Assembly: GCA_037783545.1 (NCBI GenBank)
Contig: JBBELK010000525.1
Location: 1,922,001-1,986,000 of the forward strand
Reading direction: 5' to 3'
Length of the DNA stretch: 64,000 bases
Origin: Henricia sp. BOLD:AAB3569
Lineage: Eukaryota; Echinodermata; Asteroidea; Spinulosida; Echinasteridae
Part shown: positions 4,044-38,500 of the stretch, in pieces
Layout: every line of letters starts with the position of its first letter
Position numbering within the stretch: position 1 is the first letter of the stretch
Position numbers and translations under genes: made by a program
Notes under the pieces: model-generated
Databases searched by the model: none
Told to the model about the DNA's origin: nothing
The model's input: only the letters and a program-made list of their open reading frames with translations

Positions 4044-6010
4044 ATCTTTACAAATAATAGTAATTACAGATGTTACTACGGGCAGGAGGCTCAACTATGG
4101 ATGACGATTCTGCATCATCAAGGGACTCGTACTACCCTTTTTCATCTTCAGGCTCACTGGTGGTATGTCACAGGACGAGGACCACAGAAAAGCTGCAAAA
4201 ATAATTGACAAAGAATAATATTACTCAACAAATTATTTGCCTTCATTTGTTAAGTAACAACTAAATATCTTTAATTGGTGTATCTGATATCACGTATTGT
4301 CTTTGAATGTTAATAAATTCAATATCAGTTACAAAATTGGCACACAATTTTGCACAGATTGACGTAAAACGCAGGTTTTCTAACGCTGCATCATTGCTTG
4401 TTTCACGGGAATTACGAGATCATCGCGTATGCAGTGGGCACACCACCGCCGTACGTCCCGGCCCTACACACGGCGTGGAACTCGGTCGTACGTCGGTGTG
4501 GACATTGCACGCGAGCGAAGTCTCGGATTCCTGCTCAACATGCCCTCCTAAAAGTACATTTTTGCGACAAATGGTAGGCCTTACGGACTTTTTGTCAGTA
4601 TGGTAGGATTGTTTAATGTCTACTTTTGTATACATACCTTGTCGCTTGGTGATTCACGTTGATTATGGATCGCTTTATGGACGAGAAAAAATGTTTTTGA
4701 TCGCAAATGTTGCAACCCGCGGTCGATTTTGTACGCGAATGGACCCCAGGCTAGCTGGAAACATACTCTTTTCCGATGATGACGTTTCTAAGCCAACCGG
4801 CCAATCAGAACGCGCAAATCTTTACCCGAAGTGTTCCGATCTTATTTAGCCCGATTCGTTTTAGCGTTGAAGTGTGTACCACTGACACGAACTCGCCGGA
4901 AGTTGTGTGTGCCCATAGGAATGTGCAGTAACCACGGGCGCTGTGTGTGGAGTATATGGGGCTCTCTGTTTACGATAACAGAAGTAGTCCGTCTGTGGAA
5001 CAGTATTACGGTTCTTGAGATATGAATTTTGAAAATAATAACCTTTGAATTTTTGTAATTTGACACCTGATGACGTCATGATACTATACATGCTGGTGAA
5101 AGTCTGCCGTAGGGCCTATGTCTGTATCTAATTTACTAACGATTCAGCTTGGTTTGATGGGCATTGTTACTGGTAAGTGTAAAAACTGAGATTTCCGTTT
5201 TCGTTGAACTTTGACCTCCAATTGACCCCAGAAGGAAGGGTCAGATGAAAATGCCCACACAAAGAAAGTTGTAGCACAGAATGTCATCTATAAACCTGCC
5301 AAATACGAAGATCCTGGGTCACGTGGTTTTCGAGACGGAAGCATTTTAAAATATGCATATTTTGGTTTTTTGGGAGGTGTAATTTGATACTTGATGACGT
5401 CACGATGACGTCACGCTTGATGCCATCATAATATTAAACACGCTGGTGAAAGTCTGCTATAGGACCTATGCCTGTACTTAGTTTCTTAAAGATTCAGCTT
5501 GGTTTGATGGGCATTGTTGCTCAATAAGTGCAAAAATTGAGATTTTCGTTTTCGTTGAACTTTGACCTCAGATTGACCCCAGAAGGAAGGGTCAGATGAA
5601 AATGCCCACACGAAGAAAATTGTAGGCCATGATCTGATATATAAGCCTGTCAAATACGAAGATCATGGGTCACGTGGTTTTCCAGACGGAAGCATTTTAA
5701 AACATGCATATTTTGGTCATTTTTGGTTTGTAATTTGATACCTAATGACGTCACAATGACGTCACACTTGTATGCACATCTTCACATTGGGGTTGATGTT
5801 CCTACCAAGTTTTAAGTTGATAGCTTGAACCGTTTTGAAGAAAACCTCTGGAAACGTTTGAGTGGAAAAAGAAAAAAAAAAAAAAAAAAAAAAAAAATAA
5901 AGAAATCGTACGAGAGCAATAGGTGATCGGGCTGTTGGCCCGATCACCTAAAAAGACAAAGAAATCGTACGAGAGCAATAGGTGATCGGGGCTGTTGGCC
6001 CGATCACCTA
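4044..6010 (-). mobile_element. HINE-like element, reverse copy with its 5' end
   Basis: Right copy of the 1.85 kb duplication (4044-5897), but unlike the left copy it continues into a 5' end. This end has the A run 5872-5897 (T run on the minus strand), then two hairpins of AGGTGATCGGGC type at 5920-5950 and 5980-6010, each beside the spacer AAAGAAATCGTACGAGAGCA. These hairpin units match the 5' ends of the forward copies at 6191 and 12346. Confidence 0.65.
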
Positions 6011-23500: not shown

Positions 23501-26500
23501 TGTCACTTTCTGGGTTTGAGGAGGGTAGGGAATGCCGTTTCTGGGAACCAATGCTTGGGGATCTGTGGATTTCATACACCACTTTTTAATATATTCTTTA
23601 AACCTTGTATACAGGATTTGCAATGTCGAAAAATTTGAATCAACCAAAACCTTTGCATCATTTCTTGAAAGTGAGGACAGTTTTTTAAATTATTTTCCGG
23701 AAGAAAATACAGATTGGTTTTTATTATACACGCTTAATCACACAAATAAAATTTCTACACAGAACAGTGTAGTTTTTAAAAAAAAATCTTTTTACATTTT
23801 GCGTGGATTTTTTTTGGTTTACTTTTGTGTATTGTTGAATGTTAAAGCATTAAAAATTATAAACATTTGGGATCTTGTGCATTACACAACACACTCGGCC
23901 TATGGCTTGCATCCTATCCAAAGCAATTGCATAAAACACGGCCGATATTGAACCAGAAACCCACAGCACTGTACATTTTTAAAGATCTCACATCCTTTCA
24001 CAATTCCCCAATCACGAACCTGCTTCGGAGCATGCTCAATGAACTGTCTTGCTTCTTGAGTTCTCGTTGACATGATTTAAGAAAGGTCGCTACCTCACTA
24101 TGCTGGTACTCCTCAGCTAGGTCATATGCCGTCCGACCCATGTTGTCAATGATGTCCAGTGATGCGTTGTTGGCTACCAACCACTTTGTGCAATCAAGGT
24201 GGCCGCTGCCAAAAGAGAAAAATGATTAAAGGTAGAACACATGATTGGTAAACCATTACAAATAGTTTCATCTCCCTGTGTGATTGAAGGTATGCATGAT
24301 TAAAACCAACCTGAGTAAAAATCAGCTCTGTACTTAGTCTAATTTTTGAGAAAACAGTTTAAAAAAAAAAAAAATTGTTAATTTGTTTTAGTCTTTTTAT
24401 TCATTTTTGAAAATTTCTCGGCAGCGATATTTAAAAACTATTTTCCAAAAATATCCTTTTTTTGGGCGGCGGATACATAATCCAACGAATAAAAAAAAAG
24501 GCGTTAATTCCCCTCACCTCATGGCTGCCATATGTAGTGGCGTCTGCTCATCCACCGTGCGACAGTCGACTTCCACACCCATTGCTGCAAGTAACTTGAC
24601 AACAGCAAGATGGCCGTTCATTGCAGCAAGATGCATGGCTGTGTAGCCAGTCGGCGTCAGGCCACCGATGTTGGCATCGCTGGTTGCTAGGTGTTTGATG
24701 ACGTCAAGCTTGCCATTGGCTGAGGCAATGTGGACTGGTGTCCAGCCTCTTTCATCTGGTGAGCTGATAGGTTAATGAACAAAACAGAGTGACATGCTTT
24801 ATGTCAAACTCAAAATCTGAACATAGTCAGATTCTTGAAAATCAATATTCAATCTTCCAATGATATAAAATTCAAGAAAAATTATTTTGCAACAAGAGAG
24901 AAATAGTCAGTCAAACTTGACTTTCCGAACTTTTTTTAAGGAGTTTAGTTATCAAGCTAACCATAAGAAATCTTTGTGGTTTTAAACTTTAAGTTTCGTT
25001 GAAGTTAAGTTTTTCACAAAAGAGTCCACACAAGCAATAACTACAAACTTATCATCAATGACTACGACGTTATCATCGAAATAACAAAGTTATCAACGAT
25101 CATCTGAGCATGCCTTTTGAAAATTGCCATCTCCAAGAAATTCGGAACTAAGATCGGAACTAAGATCTTCAAAGTCCATAAAACCACTTATTAATGAAGT
25201 TTAACTGCAGTCAAAAACTTGGTTTGAAGTCCCAACCGTACTCTCTATATTGAAATATTAAAATCCCACTATTTATTATTAGGGTCATAATGTTTTGCTT
25301 CTCAACTTACTTGATAAGTTGTGGGTTGTGTCGTAGCAGCATTTTAACCCTGTCTAGATCCCCTGTCTTGCAGCTACGGTGAATCGTTGGTCCTGTCAGT
25401 AATGCCGTCTCGGCCTGTCGTCTTCGCTCTTCCTCGGCCGCTCTAGATGCTGACTCTGCCTCCTTCTGATGCTCACTGATCTTGAGGGCATCCTACCAAA
25501 AGATGTACAATAATATTGCAGGATTTTGCAGTGACCCAAAATTTTACTTCATGAGTTGACAAGAAACCCTTGATAGCAATCGTAACAAACGCCACATTAT
25601 TTTTTTTCCCGTGTAAATTGGTACCTTTGTGTGAGAAATTGCCAACTGAAGGTGCTTTGAAAAAAAAAATTCTGCAGACAATTTTGTACCGTTCATTTAA
25701 CACGAAAAACATGCATGGATTCTCCAGGTTTTCTAAAGTATTACTACATCTGTGTGAGAGTTTAATATCAACATTATTCTTTAGTTCTGTAATGCTGTTG
25801 TTCCCATTTTTAAAAGTTTTCCAATCATGTAATCTGTCTTTACCCAAATAGTCCTCAAAGCACCCAAAACCACCCTGCAGCTTTCTCCTCAAAGCGCCTA
25901 AAACCAACCTGTATTTCCTCTATGTATAGGCATACACTCATAGCTTGAGTCATCCTCTTTCAGGCCTTAAGTTCAGTAAGGGTGGCTGCTATTGGATAAC
26001 TTTGGTTATTGATCTTGACAAGTGACTGCTTAAAGGCACAGCTCGTCAGCAATGCGCGCTCGCCAAATTCGTGCCACGAAATATGCAGCTCCACGGCTTT
26101 GCTATGGAGCTGCATATTTCGTAGCATGAAATAATGCTACTATCTTGTATCTAAATGCGACTAGAATGCTTTTTTTCTTTCAATGCTTCTTTTGTTTAAA
26201 TTACTGAACAGAATCAAACATTAAAAAAAAATAACGAAACATTACACAGTAGACTTACCTTAAAGCCAGCCATATACTGATTTCCGTTCATATCCGTTGC
26301 ATTGGATGAAACACCAACATTGGATTCCGTAGAAACACCACCATTGTTCCTGTTCACAGATTTCTTTGATATATCTGATTTAGGCACCCTGTCTTTTGCA
26401 GATCCACTGGCAATATGTTCAGAGTTAGTTTTCGTCCTGTCAGGTTTTGAAGACTTCGTAGGCTTATTTGCATCCGCATGTTCGCGTGGCACAGGTTTGG

Positions 26501-29500
26501 TGTTTCCTGGGCTTGGTTCCTTGCCGCTACGATCGCGATGACGACCACTCCCGATCGAGCCGCTTTTACTATCCCCGTCAGCTTTGCGATTATCGGCCGA
26601 GCTGTCGCTTCCCGACCCACTCCCGCTTTTACTCCCGCTTCCTGAGCTAGATCCGCTAGACCCACTCGAAGAACCGCTCCCAGATCCACTGTCATTATCG
26701 TCACTTCCCGAACCACTCTTGGAAGATTTACCACTCAAATCCAAGTCGGAATCGCTCTCTGAATCCGTATCGGTACCCGTCGTTGTTACCGGTGTCCGAG
26801 CCTTCTTCGATGTACCCTTTCCTCTTTTCTTCTTTTTTCGTCTTTGTTTTCGGCGGCGAGACTGGTCAGAGTAATTTGACTCTCCGCCATGACTGGCATC
26901 ACTTTGAGACGTTTTGGATTGTTTTGGGTTTGTCCGGACGAAGTGACCGTCCATAGCAGTGACCTGGGCTAGGTGTGGGTCGGTGTCGGTATACGCACTG
27001 CTGTCTGTACTCGGCTCAGCTTCGGAGGGGGAGCTGGAAGACACATCTGGAGCAAAATAGGACAAATTCTTGCTGGGTAAACTGCTACAATTGATAGAGC
27101 CTAATCTTATCCAAGTATGCAAACTTAAAAATGAAGAAATATTCACTAAACTGCCATATTGGCTATATTTAAACAGCAGGCTGTGCACGTAACAACAACG
27201 ACTCTCTTGTGTCATTACTATATTTAGATATTGATTTAGCTTGCGTCGGGGAAACTTACCCGACGTAATTATTAACACTGTATACTCAGTGCTTTCCCGA
27301 GACACTATGAAAAACTTCTTCTGACAATTGACTAACCCATGATGATGTTAGTGACTGGTAATGTTCTCACTGTCAGGCCATCTTCGTCTTGAGCTGACAG
27401 CCAACGCTCACACAGGAACTCGTAGGTGATGTCATCGCCGTATTCACGGATCATCACTTTATCAAGGAACCAGCCACAGCCTAGGAATTAAACACAAATA
27501 TCCAATGAAATGACAAATCTTGCTTCTCACAAACCACATTGAAAAGTTGGTCAAGTTACGGCAATGGGCAAGTTCGATTTAAAGGCACAGGCTCGTCAGC
27601 AATGCGCGCGCGCCAAATTCGTGCCATGAAATACGCAGCTCCATAGCAAAGGCATGGAGCTGCATATTTCGTGGCACGAATTTGGCACGCGCGCATTGCT
27701 GACGAGCCTGTGCCTTTAACTATAGTAATGAAATTAATGATGGCATCTTATATCGCACACATATCTATCCTGCGGGATACTCATGGTGCTTTACAATATC
27801 ATTACCCTGGTCATTGGGCACAACTCCCTGGGGAGTATGCAGCCCCAGCAGCCTGACACAAGCACTCAAAGGCTGCAACCCTTGCAGGTACCCATTTACT
27901 CCTGGGTGGAGAGAGGCAACTTATGGCAAAGTGCCTTGCACGAGGGCACACACACCATGGCCGCGGCCGGGAATCGAACCCACAACCGTGGAATTGGACA
28001 CACTCTCGAGTTCACTGCACCGAACCGCTCGACCATATGGTACTCTATAAGATGACAGCATAATTTAACTATAGTTCAACTATTTCCAACTGAACGCTGC
28101 GCAGTCTAGTCAAAGATGGCGAGTCGTGTCTGGTTGACCATTTGGAACCAGCCCACAAGGCATGGTCGCGCTGGTCACTGGTACCTATAACCAAAGGCAT
28201 TCACGCATGTGTGTTGTGAATCAAACTTGCTCCATGTAATATTATGACGAGCAAATGTCAATTTTTTCAATTTGATATTTAATTTATGTGTGGATAAATT
28301 TGTATGGCACAAATTATAAGAAATGGAAATTAATTATTATTTCCTACCAAGTTCCCTCATGTCATGGCCGATACAAATACACTCCATCTTGCCAATGTAG
28401 TATGACTCCACTTTGAACACGTCAATCTGCAAGTAGAAACGGATAACAATTACGGAATACAAAACCAATATAGAGTACCAAAGTGTGAAGTAAGTTGCCA
28501 TGGTACTTGGGTCTTAACATTGGCTGGTAATCTGAAGCGCCCATTGCTACAGTGTGTGGAAATTGTTCACTGGTTTTAGTGTAGACCCAGTAACCTTGGC
28601 AACACACAAAGGGTGATATATTCACTTTAGGGCTGCGTTCGGGCGTGCAGTTCTCGCTACTCTGGAGTAATGCATGCGCATTGCACTTGGGTCACATTAC
28701 GTGAACGGCAAATCCGCAGTCCGCATGCGCGAATGGCCATCAGGCAAGATGGCCGTCCCTAGTAACGACTACACAAAAAACTCTTGTTTCACTGCTCACA
28801 AGAAAATACAGACTGTAAGTCGTGAGAACCTTTGATGCCATCTAAAATTCAACAAAAATCCCACCCATTTGTCAGGGACTATCGAGAGCATACTCTCATT
28901 GACCCGAGTGTCGTTAATCTTGCCATTCGCGCGCGCAAGAGTATACCCGTGTTAACTCCCGAACGCAGCCCAATAGTCAAAAATCAAAACTTTGAAGAGA
29001 TTGTTTAGTAACACTTGTATTTTGATTAATTTCAATGTCAACTTAATTAGCAATTATCAAATTTTAAATAAAACTTGGGTCTGAAGAAAATCTGTTTCTT
29101 TTCTTGCCTGGTATAAAAAGATCTCTATATGAATAATTATTTTGCAATGAAAATTCATGCTTTTCAAAATCGGGTGTTACTGGTTGCCTTTTTGGCAATG
29201 GATTGATATTTTTTATGGAATACCTCAAAACAGCTACTTCAAAAGATTTGTATGACCTTTGACCTACCTGTCCCTTTTGAAATTTAAATTTCTTCCCATC
29301 CTTTGTTTCTTTAGACTGTTTCAGTTTTATCTTGCCCGTGTTGCCCTGTTCACCATACAGCCTGACGTGGACGTCCGCCCTGGTACTCGCTCCTAGCCGG
29401 TTACCGGTGTGGATGGACAGCTCGTAGACGGTGCGCTTGCCTGACTTGAGCCGGGGGCCGTGTTTTAAGAATTCATAGTCTTCTTTGGGTTCAGTTTGAG

Positions 29501-32500
29501 GCAGAGGGGGTGGGGGCGGAGGAGGTGGAGGGGACGGAGGTGGAGGGTCGACCTGGTTAGAAAAATCAGAAATTAGTTAACATGAAAAGAAAAAAAAACA
29601 TTATCTCATTTAGACTTTATGCAGAGGGTGTCTTTTGTCATTTCAGTTTTTGTACAATAAAACGCACAAAATGTGCCCCATTATGGTTTCCTTATGGGGT
29701 GTTTCAAAACAAAATGAAATTTAAATTCGTGACTTTTAATAGGCTGTTTTAGCGATAACTATCGGTTACTTCACTAGTTTTTATGAAATGTCTCATTTGT
29801 TGGGCATTACCAAGCTTAGGCGCACCTACACATTTCATTCTGGAAATATATTTACACATGTGTGCCATGCTTAATGCTTTTCGCGTCGACCAAAGAATGT
29901 CCCATGCAAAACATTAAACTTGCTGATTTTCCACTTTAATATCTGAAATTTATCTTAAAGACATGATTGGTAAACTTTTAAAAACAGTAGCAACAGCATA
30001 TCTAAAAAATAATGTTGAAAAACTGCCTTGTAAAGATTTCAGCCACATACCGTACATGTAGTAATACTTCAGAAAACCTGAAAAATCCATGCATGGTTTT
30101 TGTGTTGAATGGATCATTATGGTAAAATAAAAATAAAAATTCTGCAGAATTGTTTTAAATACAATTTTACACGGGTACCATTTTACACAGGAAAAGAATC
30201 ATGTGGTTTTTGTTACCATTGCTATCAACACTTTTAGTCATTTTTTTTTCTTGTCAACTCGTGAAGTAAAATTTTTTGTAAAACTGCAAATGATGTATTG
30301 GGGCTTGTAACTAACCTGTATGCCAACCTCAAGCGGTGGTTCAACTTGACACCCAACCTCTGGTTGGCTCCCTATGGTCTGCGTTTCCATATTCATAATA
30401 GGCGTGGTCTGACAATACACCTCGGGGAAAGTCTGCGTGCCGATGGTTGGTAGAGGTGGCACTGTTTGGGTTGATGCCTCAGGAGGCGGGGCTACAGTTT
30501 GTGTGCCCAATGAAATCGGAGGCGGGGCAGTCTGTACGGCCATATCGGCCTGGTACGGGTCCGTCATACTTTCCTCCGTGTTAGCGCGTCGTGTTTGCGT
30601 GTCTTTCTCATTTTCTGCGTTCTCGACGGTTTGGCAGCTAGTCTCTCTCCCAGTCTGAGTTGTGTTATCGATGCTGTGTAGGATTTCATCTCCTTGGCTC
30701 ACGCTGTCTTCTGGCTCCTCCTCCTCCTCCTCGTCTCCTACTTCATTTGCATAATCGTCATGATTATTCATATCCACTTTAGACATCTGGATGCTGTATT
30801 AATTAACAACGTTTTCGGTAAATCAAAGATGTTTTGTATTCTGGCTCCTCCTCCTCCTCGTCCCCTACTTCATTTGCATAATCGTCATGATTATTCATAT
30901 CCACTTTAGACATCTGGATGCTGTATTAATTAACAACGTTTTCAGTAAATCAAAGATGTTTTGTATGGATCACACAAAATTTACATTGTTATATAATCAT
31001 CTATAGGGCCTTTAAGCAGAAGGTCTGCTGTTCGAATCCCGGTGGAGCCAAGTTGTTTTTCACTGCGTCCGGATTTCCCAAACTCATTAACATTTGTTCA
31101 TGTTTGTGTCGATTTTTAATTTTATTGGTAATTATGAGAAAGTTTATGGTCATAATTTTCTCCTAGGCAAAGAAACAACATACTTGAGCCATTCTGGGGA
31201 GTGATGCTTGCCAGAACCTTTGACTGGTACCAGGATGTTCATGCTACTGCTGGCGGAATCATCAAAATCATCGTCGTCATAATCATCGGCATCCTGATCA
31301 GATTCTGAAGCCTCGTAGTGTCTTGGTTCCTGGGGTCAAATGTAGTAAAAAAAATTATGAAATTTGCATAAAAGAAATATTAAATTTAAATATGAAAAAA
31401 AATGCAATGAAATTATGAAATGTGTTAAAAGTTAAAAATCTCAAAGCTTACTTCTTTGAAGATAAAAGTGGGAATTTTTTTTAAAATTGGGTAGTGGGTT
31501 CCCAATTTTAGTATTAAACACCAGGGGCACTTTAAAAAATGTCTATAAAGTGAAAAAAAAAACAAATGGTGAGAACCTTCGATGCCATCTAAAACAAACC
31601 TTAGTGGGTTGTTGTTTCAGTTATCCAGTTGACACGTTGGGAAAATTCACCAAAAATCTCACCCATATTCCGCCATCTTCGTACAAATCACATGGCACTC
31701 GTCAGGAGTAAGAGCACACTCCCCATTTGTTGGGGAGTAGTGAGAGCATACTCTCATTGACCCGAGTGTCGTTATTCTTGCTGTTCGCGCGCGCAGGAGT
31801 ATACTCGTGTTAACCCGAACGCAGCCCCTAATTGGTCAACAATGTAAGCACAGAATGTGCAACTATGCATGTCCTCGAGGAACAAAGAAACTGCCCTACA
31901 AGATGGCAGCTATTATAACACAGAATTAAAGGTACCTCTATGTGCAGTTTTATCCTTCTTCCAATTGAGTCATAACCATAACGTGCCGTGCTCGGTGAAG
32001 TCTTCGCAGCCGATTTGGGTCTCATTTCGGCCGCAGACCTCGGACGGGGGCGCTCTCCGAAGGACGACCTTGGCCTCGTCGGCCGGTGTCCGTAAGTGGA
32101 CTTGGGTCTCTCCGGTCGCCTTGGTTGGTGGCGGTAGTCGATGTGGCCATTCTCAATCGTGGGTAAACTTGAGCTGATTCCACTGTCGTTTCTTTTATAC
32201 TGTAACATGAATTTCAAGAATTTTAAATTGTTTCCTTTTTTTTGGAAATCACCCAATACAAGGCTGAAATGGAATATAAAATATAATGCAGGAAAACATG
32301 ATTTAAAATCATTATCAAAATGCTCTACAAATCTACCTTAGTTATATCACTGACTATAGATGTCTTTTTCTAAAAATTACATTTTTCAGAAAAAAATGTA
32401 ATTTTTAAAAAATAGCAGTGAAATAATCGTTTTAAAAGGTGCTTACCTTTCCCGAGTGTGTTCGTCCATTTGTCCTCTGGTCCAGTGGAATAGTTTCCTT

Positions 32501-35500
32501 AAAATAAAAAAAAAAATAAAAAAAATCATAAATACCAGAGACAGTTTACCCATTTCTATTGTTCAAGAGCACATCACATGTTTTTTTTTAAACGGTTGAT
32601 AAAGACCAGTCCTAAACACTTTCTCACAATTTCAAGAAGCGTTTATTTTAGTGAAAGAAAATAAATTGTTTTTCTTAAATGGGGTGAGTTTTAAAGATCC
32701 AGAAAATTTTGTGTATAAAACCCTCCCGGATTTTGCAACAGATTCTTCGGAAAATGACTAATTTTGTGAGTCCTGATATGAATAAAAACCCTCCTGGATT
32801 GTCAATTAACAACCTTGGGGATTTTTAGATGTGTTTGGAGTCACAGAATGAACTTTTTTCCCAGATGTTCTCCCCAAAATCCGGGAGAGTTGGCAGCTCT
32901 ATATTAAGATAGAGTTATCTTCAACATTATCAACTCAATAAAATGTTCCAGACTCACTGTAGCAACCAGGATTTTGGTGGCAGCGTTGACCAGTCTCTCT
33001 TTTTCTCCTTTAGACAGTTGCGGACCGTGCCGTGACCTTAGCAGCAATGGACCTCCATGGAAGTCGTTTCTTCTGATATAACAAAATATGAAATTCAGTT
33101 ATAAGATAAGGGATTTCACAAAATCACACACATCAGCTTTCAACAAGAAGTGAAGCAAATAAAGGAAGCTTAAATAAATGTCACAAAGAAATGAAATATA
33201 TTTATATTTGTTTCTTATGAGAACATACAGCTATTTACAAGGGCACATGCACAAGCTGTGATGTGGAATTGTTTATATGCATCCAGTGATTGAATTAAAG
33301 TAAGAGAAATTTCTGGAAAATTATGTATTTTTAAGACTTATTTTTAGCAGGCCTATAGGCAGGCCTGCTAAAGGGGGAGAGGGGGGAGTACACCCATAAA
33401 CTAGCAAATTTCATTTGTATATGATGTTTGAGGGTTTTCATGGTTAGGTAATTATCAAGCTGAATTTTTCAAAGCTGAATTTTGTCTGAAAATTTTCAGC
33501 TTAGATTTCAGTTTTTTGGGAAGGACAGGGCCCAATTTCATGGAACCTGTTAGTACAAAAATTTGTTTAGCACAGAATTTCTTTGCTCTGTAAAATTGGT
33601 TACCAGCCAAAATTGTACGTCAAATTGTATTTTTAGAAAAAGGAGCAAAATATCAGTAAATACACATCACATACGATTTTGGCTGACAACCCAGTTTTGC
33701 AAAATAAAGCAAATAAATTCTGTGCTAAACAAATTTTTGTGCTAATGGGTTCCATGAAATTGGGCTCTGATCCTCTTTTCCTGGTAGTGTGTATCAAAGT
33801 AGATATGTATCCCTACCATTTTTCATGTGAATGGTACGCAAATTCCATTCTAGGACTGCACCCCAATCAACATTTCTGCCTACAGGACTCTATAACTCTT
33901 TTGTATGATTATTTTGGCCCTGTAGCTATTAAGGCTTCCAATGTGTCAGCTGTGGCCAAGCAGAATTTCAAAGTTTCTACCTTTTCTTTTGAGGTGGTTT
34001 TACTTGGACGACACTGGTATATGGACTCTGTAAACCAAAGGAAAAGCAATCATTGTGAGAATTTTACTGCATCCAAATTCAATGACGTAAATTAAATCAG
34101 TATGAAGACCAAGTACCAAAATGATGTCAAGAATACATACAAATCTATAGACCATTCCCAGGACGCCTTCCCTGTATACATCCACACATGACGTACCCAA
34201 CGCGCTCTTCGCACACACAAATTCACACCGGGCCTCTGTGCGAGTGATTGCCACGCACGTCACTTTAAGAAAAAGCGGTGTGGAAGGAATTTTGAGTGAA
34301 ACACTTTCCGTCCAAGCTAATTCTGTGAAAGGGATTTGGGGTGAAACAATGCACCGGAAACCACAGAATTAGCTCGGACATATTGAACGTAAAGTCTTTT
34401 CATCATTTCACTCAAAATTCCCTCCACATCGCTTTTTCTCAAAGCGACGAGCGTCGCAATTACGCGCGCGCGAAAAGGCTTAGTGTGAATTCACCATTAC
34501 AACAAACGCGCAAATTGTTCGAAGTCTCGACACAATGAGCATCATCACATAACGCATGTAGTTCATGAACTGACCGTGTCCCAGCTATGGTGGACATACA
34601 GGGAAGGATTCCATAGTAATGGGGAACGGTCTATACTACTCAAAATGTTGATGTTTTTCTGAATGCTGGAAATGCATTATGTTAATGTGTTTTTTTATTT
34701 TTTTTAAATTATATTTATTTAACATAAGTGTTATTTTGATCGGAAATTGTTGAATATCATCAAATATTGTTTGTGTCATTGGAATAAAAATACCTAATAT
34801 TTGTTTGCACACAAATAGTTCATGAACCCATTTTGTGTTTCTAGCGGCTTCGAATGAGCAAAAATGGAAAACAATTAGCCACTTTGACATTTTTATTGAA
34901 CTTACTGAAAAATGAGATCTGTCCATGTATTTGTCAACATCTCTCCTGTCGGAATTAAAAAAAAAAAAAATTCAAACACTTTTTGTCTTTTAAAATGAGT
35001 CTACATAAACTGAGCCCAAATTCGGGGTATATATTCTAGATGCCAAGCTCAAGATCAAACTGAAAGTCTTTCGGTTGCCATGCTATCCCAATTTTTAAAT
35101 TTAGCAGAATATAATCCAATTTTCCTATTTCTGTTCTGGACACACACATACACACAATAAAGGCCTGGCCACACAAAGTGTTAAAGGCCCTATGTATCAT
35201 TTGCAAGACAAAATGTTTTACAGATTCGTGGAATAAGAGTGTAACATATCTAAGGAAGAATGTTGGTAAACTAGCCTGAAGAAATTTTAGCTACTTAGAT
35301 GCATCAATGCTTCAGAAAACCTTGAAAATCTATATATGGATTTTGTGGACAAGTGAATGGTGAAAAAGTCCCGTGCACGGGACCTTTTTAGAAAACCACC
35401 TTCGGTTGTCAGTTTCGAGCATGAAATACCATTTTGGACGTAAAATTCATGTGGTGTTTGTTACCATTGCTATCAACACTTTGAGTAAGGTTTTCTGGTC

Positions 35501-38500
35501 AAGTCATGAAAAACAAAATGGGTCATTGCAAATGATACAATGGCCTTTAATGCCCTAATCTCTATTTCTATTAATAGAGATATGATTAAATGTTATTAGT
35601 ACATTCAGATAGGTATCTCTGTTACTCAGCAGTAAATATGAACCTTGCACACCATGTTCTTGACCCTCGACACTTAGTTGACGCTCTACGCATTATACAG
35701 CAAATGTGTGACTAGGCCATTAAAAAAGAATAATTAACTGCTTCTACAAAGACATGCGCAGGAAATCACGCGTACCACACACCTTCCCAAATTACATTTA
35801 AGGATAATCTCGTACCTAACTTTTGATTCCCGTTCGTTTTGGCTGGACCTTGGTTTCATCTGGGCCAGGTGTTTTTTGACCTCCGCATTCCGGAAATAGT
35901 GTTTGAGCGCCCTGTCGTGAAGTCCATCGTACAGAAGTGTTGGCCGCTGTTTAGGACAATAGGGAACAAAAAACAAACAGGAAACTTCAAGTGTTGCCCT
36001 GCATTCGCAAGAGACTAAAATAAACCTGTTTTGTAATATATTGTATGCAAGCTTAGGTCTGCCAACTTCAAGGTCAGAAGGGAAGGGGGGAGGTAGGCAT
36101 GCTTGGTCATTCCCCCTAACAGCCAGGCCATTCCACGCCAAAGTGGACATCACTGCCAACATTTGAAGTTGATTGCACAATTTTAGTATACCTAGATACT
36201 TTAGTTGTTTGAAATACTCCTTACACAAACTGCTCAGATGTTCAATTCATGGGTGAGGTTGGAAGGAAAAAAAAATTTTTCGGAAGGGGAAGGGGTCGGG
36301 GGAGAGACGTAGAGACCACGAAGACTTTAACTTTTGGGATCGTTTTAAACACCACCATCGTGCAAATTGCAATGTCAAAAACATTTTAACCAGGTATCAC
36401 AAGAACCAGTTTTGTTTTAAATATTTACCTTGTACAAATGTGGATAATATTAAAAAGAATCTAGGCAACATCGATCGTTGAAGACGGTGAAGCAAAAGCG
36501 AAGGGTAAAATTGGTCTTTTGCCCCCTGCTTGTCGCATCGCACCAGCCGCGCACTGACCACGTGCACGCATCACACATCACACACCACACGCAACGCACG
36601 ACTGTTTCCAGTTTACGATGCAGGCAAAGATGGCGCTTGCTTAGGGATTAGACTTGTACACGTCTGCTTCGCTACTCGTTGCAGACTCGGTCTGCTCGCC
36701 GAGCGACACAGTACATGTATATATGGTACAGCGCAGGAAGTCATGGCACTTGTGTGGCAACTAGACTTGCACAAGTTTGCTTCGCAAAATTACTGAATCA
36801 TTTGAGGGCGCTCGTTAAAAACAAATGGCCCGCTGGAAGGGCAAAAAAGTGCACACAACGAAAAAGCAGAAATCCGCTAAAAAGCGGAGATTTCACAATG
36901 AAAAACAGAAAACTCTCAAATCAGGACGTGTCGGTAAAATTCTGGGAATCCCGAAAAATCTTACCCCTAGCAATTATAACTGGACGACAACAGCTCTTTA
37001 TTTTCATACGTCCAACATCCATAACATTGAAGTGTAACGTCTGTAACGTTAATTAGTGTAATAGGACAATATAGGATTGCTAAAACTGTAGCTGTAGGAC
37101 ATTGTGTAATACACTTAAAGGAGTGTGTCTAGATAATAGACAAATAGCACAGGAAGAAATCTCTTTCAGTAAGATGTTTAAATGATACAAATTCAGACAA
37201 CTAGGAGAATTAGCTTCAAAGGCAACCAAGGATTTTTACTTTTGTTTTACATCCATATACTGACCGGTTTGAGGGTAGGGTAGTGCCTTTGGGGCTGGTC
37301 AGGTCCTGACAGGTCAAAAGCATCTTCCAATCGCTTCACTTCCATGTAATATTTCCTGAATTGAAAAAATCAATAATAAAAAAATAATAATAAAAAAATC
37401 AATAATAATTAATCAATAATCAATAATAAAATAATAATTTTGATAATTATCACAAAAAATGAAATGTTTTGTTTTAATTGGGGAATTGTAAAAATGTTGT
37501 AAATGATTGTTAAGCCACACACTGACCATGCCTTAATTACACGGCAACGTGAAAAAATAATGCAATGAAAAATTTAGGCAATCGTTCAGACATTGTGTTA
37601 AATTTGCTTAAAAGAGTCGTTGAACCCGTTTCTGTGCTACTTTTTGAAATTACATGAAATTGTACTGACATTTATTTTGGATTTTTAAAGACAGGAACAG
37701 CACTCTGCAGCATTACAAACTGTCTTGTAGAAATTTCAGCCACACAGATGCAGAATTCTTGATGTCCCCTAACGTGGTGCGACCCCTAACGTGGTGCACT
37801 TTAATTTCCGTTCTCTCTTGGCGCAATAAACAATCTGTTGCACTTGACATTAAACATTAAACAGAAATAAAGTTCTCAAGTACCTTCAAAAATTCCAAAA
37901 CTAAAATTGGGAGAAGTATCATTAATTTACTAGAAATTCACCGGAATGTGAAGGTATCGCCGTTCGCTTCAGGTTGACGTGACATCATACACGAGAGCCT
38001 CTATTAGGCATTTCGCGTGAATAAAATCATGCCTAGCGGCATTGTCTCCTGTATGAAGGTGCATGCATGCAAATGGTCATCATAGGCCACCGTAGCATGG
38101 TTCTTAACATTTCGGCCAATCAGCGTCGAGTGCGCCACGTTAGGAAACACTTGGACGATTTTCCGTGAGTAAATTTTTGCGGCACCTGTTGACGTTTTCC
38201 CATTATTTGTGTAATTTGTACTTGGCCAAAAAAAGTGAATGGCTGTTTTTCTGGAAGGCATACACTTCTGCATCAAGTTGTAAAAGCCTGAACCTCATAT
38301 GCTGATGGATTTTGCTGCAATGTGAATGGATTTCCAGTGAGTTGTTGAAGTGCGCCAAGTTAGGGGACATCACCATAATACTTCAGAAAACCTTAAAAAT
38401 CCATTCATGGTTTTTGTGTTAAATGAATGGTAAAAAAAAGAGCAAAATTTAAAACAATTGTTTTTTTTTTTTAAAGCACCTTTAGCAATACAATACTTAG

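Follow-up and report, generated by a model that had tools for sequence, protein, structure and literature searches.

How is a protein segment to be read in which short triplets centred on glutamine recur eleven times in some 120 residues, just ahead of a poly-proline run and a PLAT domain? Such triplets are the core of the strands by which many partners dock onto the dynein light chain LC8 (DYNLL), and the first-pass annotation had proposed a multivalent LC8 binding region. We examined this proposal in the window (the whole stretch of 64,000 nt analysed here), in ten loci from the same genome and against published LC8 partners, together with readings of the segment as a DNA repeat, as kinase sites, as a proline-rich linker and as a handle for the dynein motor.

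The gene and its ladder of anchors

The segment belongs to a gene model of 15 exons on the minus strand, joined through splice consensus and phase, which gives 1072 codons with no stops and with all phases consistent; exon 1, with its start codon, is predicted, as is the end of exon 15, which was placed arbitrarily, and the model is tentative from there on. The model comprises the following parts:

31184..37345, minus strand: exons 1-7 (37265-37345, 35821-35946, 33981-34027, 32958-33072, 32447-32497, 31936-32199, 31184-31329)
30316..30793, minus strand: exon 8 (codons 277-436), an acidic stretch and then the ladder; its phases fit exons 7 and 9
29268..29552, minus strand: exon 9, the end of site 11, a poly-proline linker and the first half of PLAT
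28348..28426, minus strand: exon 10, the middle of PLAT
27337..27480, minus strand: exon 11, the end of PLAT
26259..27046, minus strand: exon 12, a Ser/Lys-rich stretch of disordered type
24021..25492, minus strand: exons 13-15 (25311-25492, 24518-24763, 24021-24205), ankyrin repeats, with consistent phases

Exon 8 lies between the acceptor taatacag/CATCC and the donor CAG/gttagt, within an open frame at 30316-30798 that holds the ladder and displays ten Q[TV] pairs, its final codon being the eleventh Q. Whereas the frame of exon 9 alone covers only positions 1-52 of the Pfam PLAT profile, with 29.2 bits, splicing exons 9-11 raises the match to 55.7 bits (cut-off 23; E 9.9e-15; positions 1-108 of 117), which is independent support for the gene model. 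Exons 14 and 15, in their reading frames, match Pfam Ank families. The order of domains is thus an ERICH3-like N-terminal stretch, basic and acidic stretches of disordered type, the ladder (residues 318-438), poly-proline, PLAT, the Ser/Lys-rich stretch and the ankyrin repeats. No signal peptide or membrane segment was evident by hydropathy (the peak 19-residue value, 1.54, falls within the ankyrin part), no zinc finger was found among the gene parts scanned with Pfam, and a search of solved structures with the ladder exon returned no meaningful match (best E 0.25).

Neither domain type names the protein: polycystin-1 and a coral lipoxygenase are among the 10 sequences matching PLAT at E <=0.01, which confirms the domain only, and many ankyrin genes match the repeats at 30-39% identity, which is not diagnostic. 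In a separate search of the genome, the top PLAT match outside the gene was a segment of locus L014 (contig C40), 54% identical to residues 41-92 of the exon 9 product. A 127-bp tandem duplication at window positions 30718-30966, 98% identical, repeats the exon 8 acceptor together with the ~30 codons that follow it; of the two copies, the one upstream (30833-30925) would run into a stop and so looks like a decoy acceptor. Elsewhere in the window, the open frames 380-1073 and 4423-5115 are repeated ~4.04 kb apart and more repeated frames occur across 2-20 kb, pointing to recent segmental duplication or repeats.

The spliced protein carries [T/C/V/I]-Q-[T/V] anchors at eleven places, their Q residues being 323, 331, 343, 364, 375, 386, 397, 405, 415, 426 and 436. 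Their number and their steps of 8, 12, 21, 11, 11, 11, 8, 10, 11 and 10 residues are exactly those of the first-pass annotation, which had also placed the ladder in an eighth exon, its number in the present model. Its wording of a TQT/CQT ladder fits eight anchors (six TQT, two CQT) and does not fit the remaining VQT, CQV and IQV. The last anchor spans the splice between exons 8 and 9 (GIQ/VD), with its V supplied by exon 9. The ladder and its octamers, numbered from -5 to +2 around Q, are as follows:

30316..30672, minus strand: LC8-type ladder, residues 318-436 in exon 8, ending in exon 9 at residue 438
30649..30672, minus strand: site 1, IDNTTQTG
30625..30648, minus strand: site 2, RETSCQTV
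30589..30612, minus strand: site 3, NEKDTQTR, with the top matrix score
30526..30549, minus strand: site 4, ADMAVQTA
30493..30516, minus strand: site 5, ISLGTQTV
30460..30483, minus strand: site 6, PEASTQTV
30427..30450, minus strand: site 7, PTIGTQTF
30403..30426, minus strand: site 8, PEVYCQTT
30373..30396, minus strand: site 9, MNMETQTI
30340..30363, minus strand: site 10, PEVGCQVE (compare QSVGVQVE of GKAP)
30316..30333 (six residues) plus VD at 29547-29552, minus strand: site 11, LEVGIQ/VD (compare LSIGIQVD of GKAP)

The octamers never overlap and are separated by linkers of 0, 4, 13, 3, 3, 3, 0, 2, 3 and 2 residues, seven of the ten measuring 2-4; the zero-residue linkers lie at sites 1/2 and 7/8, and the 13-residue gap splits the ladder into a group of three sites and a group of eight. 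Only one other [TCVI]Q[TV] triplet occurs among the 1072 residues, a lone VVQV at residue 77. As for the earlier description of a disordered part next to PLAT, the ladder does precede the poly-proline run and PLAT, while disorder is weakly indicated by composition scales only (Uversky value -0.073, barely disordered; weakly disordered overall, with TOP-IDP among the scales).

Chance, DNA repeats and selection on the peptide

The anchor array is not due to chance. When the ladder residues were shuffled, the sequences had 1.02 anchors on average and never more than 7, with eleven reached in 0 of 200,000 trials, and 11 of the 13 ladder Q residues sit in anchors. Six-frame ORFs of 60 aa or more, 487 in total across the window and the ten loci, include the ladder ORF with its 11 anchors, and the other 486 have two or fewer in any 121 residues. 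The spacing is uncommon as well: when anchors were placed at random with their number and ends fixed, all steps reached 8 or more in 108 of 200,000 placements, and nine of the ten steps fell within 8-12 in 5 of 200,000.

Nor is the ladder a minisatellite at the DNA level, since the choice among synonymous codons is random from unit to unit: codon agreement at the anchors equals that of random choice for Q (25 of 55 pairs, 0.50 expected) and is 10/37 at +1 and 4/18 at -1, with ~0.26 expected for Thr. A neutral coding repeat, recently expanded, could be read into the 127-bp tandem duplication at the start of the ladder exon, but this duplication ends before the ladder and is the only one found by a repeat search of 30300-31000. 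Additionally, no array called by a tandem repeat finder covers the ladder, the single call inside it (30577-30603, period 13, 2.1 copies) touching site 3 only, and the 33-nt units are on average 40% identical, with a maximum of 58%. Together with the randomised codons, these observations already contradict a neutral expansion, which is barely conceivable. The sites are either old, with DNA drift under a kept peptide, or of separate origin, and either way they point to selection on the peptide. The suggestion that a QT core kept among varying spacers reflects selection is thus supported, inside this single sequence, by the randomisation of synonymous codons. Besides the duplicated start of exon 8, no second ladder was found in the genome at E <=10 (15 candidates scored).

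Flanks, site scores and competing functions

In PMC6607443, an LC8 site is described as eight residues with -1 and +1 buried, a polar residue at -4 and a large one at -3; a bulky aromatic is absent at -2, there is no internal proline, and P, D or E is favoured and hydrophobic residues are disfavoured at +2 (LC8Pred). The strand breaker at +2 is given there as a preference rather than an absolute requirement, and many TQT peptides are reported to fail to bind LC8. We compared the ladder with these rules by fixing the anchors and shuffling the remaining ladder residues, in tests run after the octamers had been seen. A polar residue occupies -4 in 11 of 11 sites (shuffle mean 4.9, p 4e-5) and a large one occupies -3 in eight (p 0.04), whereas proline is found in none of the 33 places from -4 to -2, though it makes up 15 of the 88 free residues (p 0.0004); jointly, the three upstream rules hold in 7/11 sites (mean 2.3, p 0.0014). 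The ladder prolines gather instead at -7 to -5 and +3 to +6, six of the eleven sites having proline at +3. Once the stretch is widened to 367 residues, which brings in a twelfth anchor, the avoidance by proline is less significant (p 0.015). The +2 rule does not hold, with P, D or E in two of the eleven sites and a hydrophobic residue in five.

A scoring matrix was built from the binders of that source (18, of which 14 are TQT; leave-one-out AUC 0.81 against 27 anchor-bearing non-binders); it hardly covers CQT and IQV anchors. The upstream flanks of the ladder average 0.50 against a null of -4.13 (sd 0.87; 0/5000), five standard deviations above it, and whole octamers average 7.2 against 3.5 (0/5000), while the +2 position scores under the null (p 0.047). 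Conversely, eight of the eleven sites fall under the median of the 27 published non-binders; those above it are NEKDTQTR, PTIGTQTF and PEASTQTV, and the three lowest, PEVYCQTT, PEVGCQVE and LEVGIQVD, do not rise above the 11th percentile. A two-class flank score of binders versus non-binders (leave-one-out AUC 0.72), in which the non-binders had themselves been picked as LC8-like, is positive in 6/11 sites and averages ~-0.1 over the ladder, near the non-binders (-0.04) and far from the binders (2.3). The check by LC8 motif matrix that the first-pass annotation had put forward therefore has a divided outcome, the flanks being LC8-like when compared with random sequence but not when compared with LC8-like non-binders. 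Sites of unusual sequence or low score are known in LC8 partners, however: GKAP is described as binding through LSIGIQVD and QSVGVQVE and nNOS through GIQVD, and SAO-1 is a partner with a listed CQT anchor (PMC12797016); LCA5 binds by VQT and weaker CQS motifs (PMC9481538); and low-scoring sites of ASCIZ and Bassoon are reported to be helped by their neighbours (PMC6607443). Several other functions were weighed as well.

A domain of SQ/TQ clusters is usually defined by three or more S/TQ within about 100 residues, and the ladder, with seven in 121 residues, formally falls under it and could be a target of ATM/ATR-type kinases. Yet five anchors (CQT, CQT, CQV, VQT, IQV) lack S or T before Q and still keep in step, and T or V at +1 in 11/11 sites together with a polar -4 is not known to be required by such kinases, which makes phosphorylation an improbable explanation of the array; kinase-site and LC8 roles could coexist. 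It might also be argued that the segment is a proline-rich linker for SH3, WW or EVH1 domains in which the QT triplets are incidental, given that 15 of its 88 non-anchor residues are proline, that a poly-proline run follows directly and that the sites, taken singly, mostly fail to outscore the published LC8 non-binders. This is very unlikely in view of the excess of QT over the shuffled expectation at fixed composition and of the avoidance of -4 to -2 by proline at every anchor. Finally, the ladder could bind LC8 so as to recruit the dynein motor, as a cargo adaptor, LC8 being a dynein subunit and the N-terminal stretch resembling that of ERICH3, which is ciliary (PMC6848114). We see slim prospects for this role: a client and the dynein intermediate chain occupy the same LC8 grooves, and PMC6607443 sees in LC8 a hub for dimerisation and not an adaptor for cargo. 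Of the earlier alternatives, a protein dimerised or tied to dynein, dimerisation is accordingly the better half.

A predicted LC8 client and the known systems it resembles

The genome holds candidate partners for the ladder. In the 740.7-Mb assembly, five LC8-type open frames cover the Pfam profile completely or lack a single position of it, and a sixth is partial. Compared with human DYNLL1, two DYNLL-like genes are identical at 81/89 and 77/89 positions, with a nearly unchanged C-terminal half, in which the LC8 groove lies, and three more distant LC8-type genes have 57-65 identities over 86-87 positions, two of them being identical copies. These divergent genes (L003, L004 and L005, with L004 and L005 as identical frames on contigs C288 and C761) are perhaps axonemal forms or assembly duplicates. 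In the same assembly, mitochondrial cox1 occurs three times (L009-L011) on contig C955 in steps of 16,221 bases, an apparent assembly concatemer, and once on contig C2104, of 16,221 bases. The gene is well readable under the echinoderm/flatworm code, AAA standing for Asn at conserved places, from which we take the animal to be an echinoderm.

The segment is best explained as a predicted multivalent LC8 (DYNLL) binding region whose sites are each weak to moderate, a reading to which we assign a probability of roughly 0.7. The earlier proposal is supported by the anchors, the -4 and proline rules, the lack of overlap, the LC8 genes and the two sites like those of GKAP and nNOS; against it, single sites mostly score no higher than published non-binders. 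A consistent picture would be that of numerous sites, each weak to moderate, which work jointly. A row of stacked LC8 dimers would probably hold two copies of the protein next to each other, dimerising it in the manner of Nup159 or ASCIZ, with recruitment of dynein less likely.

From the sequence we infer such binding, with its register, stoichiometry and stiffness, in the following way. The free chain would be disordered; each eight-residue site would add a beta-strand to a groove of the LC8 dimer, and the dimer, with its two grooves, would clamp the same site on two parallel chains, successive dimers stacking along them. The touching pairs (sites 1/2 and 7/8) may compete rather than fill together, leaving roughly nine dimers per duplex, and a stiff parallel duplex just before the poly-proline run and PLAT would pair the PLAT and ankyrin modules. 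Linkers of 3 residues are reported to give stable duplexes that are heterogeneous and possibly off-register, those of 6 and 9 residues being homogeneous (PMC10046861), and shorter linkers to give more rigid complexes (cited in PMC12797016). Since its linkers mostly measure 2-4 residues, the ladder may by analogy with these trends be stiff but somewhat heterogeneous, and the heterogeneity described for 3-residue linkers counts against a neat register. If the LC8 reading is true, this dense and regular eleven-site client with mixed anchors would offer a good natural system for learning how cooperativity and rigidity depend on linker length and on weak sites, and LC8 stacking would be tied to an animal protein, with PLAT and ankyrin modules, for which no match to a described one was found. 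In the open-licence papers searched there was no report of the protein as an LC8 client and no paper joining PLAT and ankyrin to LC8 or the axoneme, and among the matches listed no title or start of an abstract links LC8 to an echinoderm protein.

Where such a protein would act can be approached through its N-terminus. Residues 29-54, from exon 2, match L018:4436-4513 (38% over 26 residues, E 4e-4; four loci, 26 kb searched), ~3 kb upstream of the genome's DUF4590 match on contig C250 and on the same strand. We take the L018 stretch and the DUF4590 match to be one gene, suggesting that an N-terminal module is shared by two otherwise different proteins; unlike ERICH3, the ladder protein has PLAT and ankyrin repeats, and the ERICH3 family test gave no match to DUF4590 in exons 2-15 as scanned. 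From the ERICH3-like N-terminus and the ciliary nature of ERICH3 (PMC6848114) we infer a ciliary location, which is plausible and hangs on this thin thread. A more specific and rather doubtful idea is that of an echinoderm ciliary or centriolar scaffold, built like an ERICH3 relative that had acquired PLAT and ankyrin modules, in which about nine LC8 dimers would form a stiff spacer of fixed length. Such a scaffold would present its PLAT and ankyrin domains in pairs and at a defined distance, and its spacer would have a counterpart in the LC8 stack at the base of radial spokes, which is built on an unrelated protein.

Clients with so many LC8 sites seem rare, and Nup159 and LCA5 are not known to have PLAT or ankyrin modules. 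The sites of Nup159 are short-spaced, and ASCIZ carries zinc fingers. Sites 10 and 11 recall the non-canonical sites of GKAP and nNOS, with VG-x-QVE in site 10 and GIQVD in site 11 (PMC12797016), although GKAP, as described there, lacks a TQT array and has just two sites, spaced by 17 residues. A VQT site is also present in LCA5 (lebercilin), which binds LC8 and is a ciliary-centrosomal protein oligomerised by it (PMC9481538); unlike the ladder protein, LCA5 is described with two sites and self-dimerises by a coiled coil. RSP3 of radial spokes, ciliary as well, has several TQT-like sites, and at the base of the spoke LC8 occurs as multimers (PMC12399478); its sites number about three, and it is likened to the ladder by these sites and not by homology. 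Yeast Nup159 shares with the ladder a series of sites for LC8/Dyn2, five in number, and forms rigid stacked complexes (PMC10046861), although it is a nucleoporin with fewer sites. A further parallel is ASCIZ/ATMIN, of human and, with seven sites, of Drosophila, whose number of sites is called unusually high in a 2018 abstract. ASCIZ is a transcription factor that mixes long and short linkers (PMC10046861), whereas nine of the ten linkers of the ladder measure 0-4 residues and the parts of its protein that were scanned have no zinc finger. As in the ladder, TQT-type sites are many in ASCIZ, where they lie on a disordered chain and weak ones are aided by their neighbours (PMC6607443, PMC10046861, PMC12797016), and QT2-3 of Drosophila ASCIZ are separated by the same 3-residue linker that recurs in the ladder (PMC10046861, PMC12797016).
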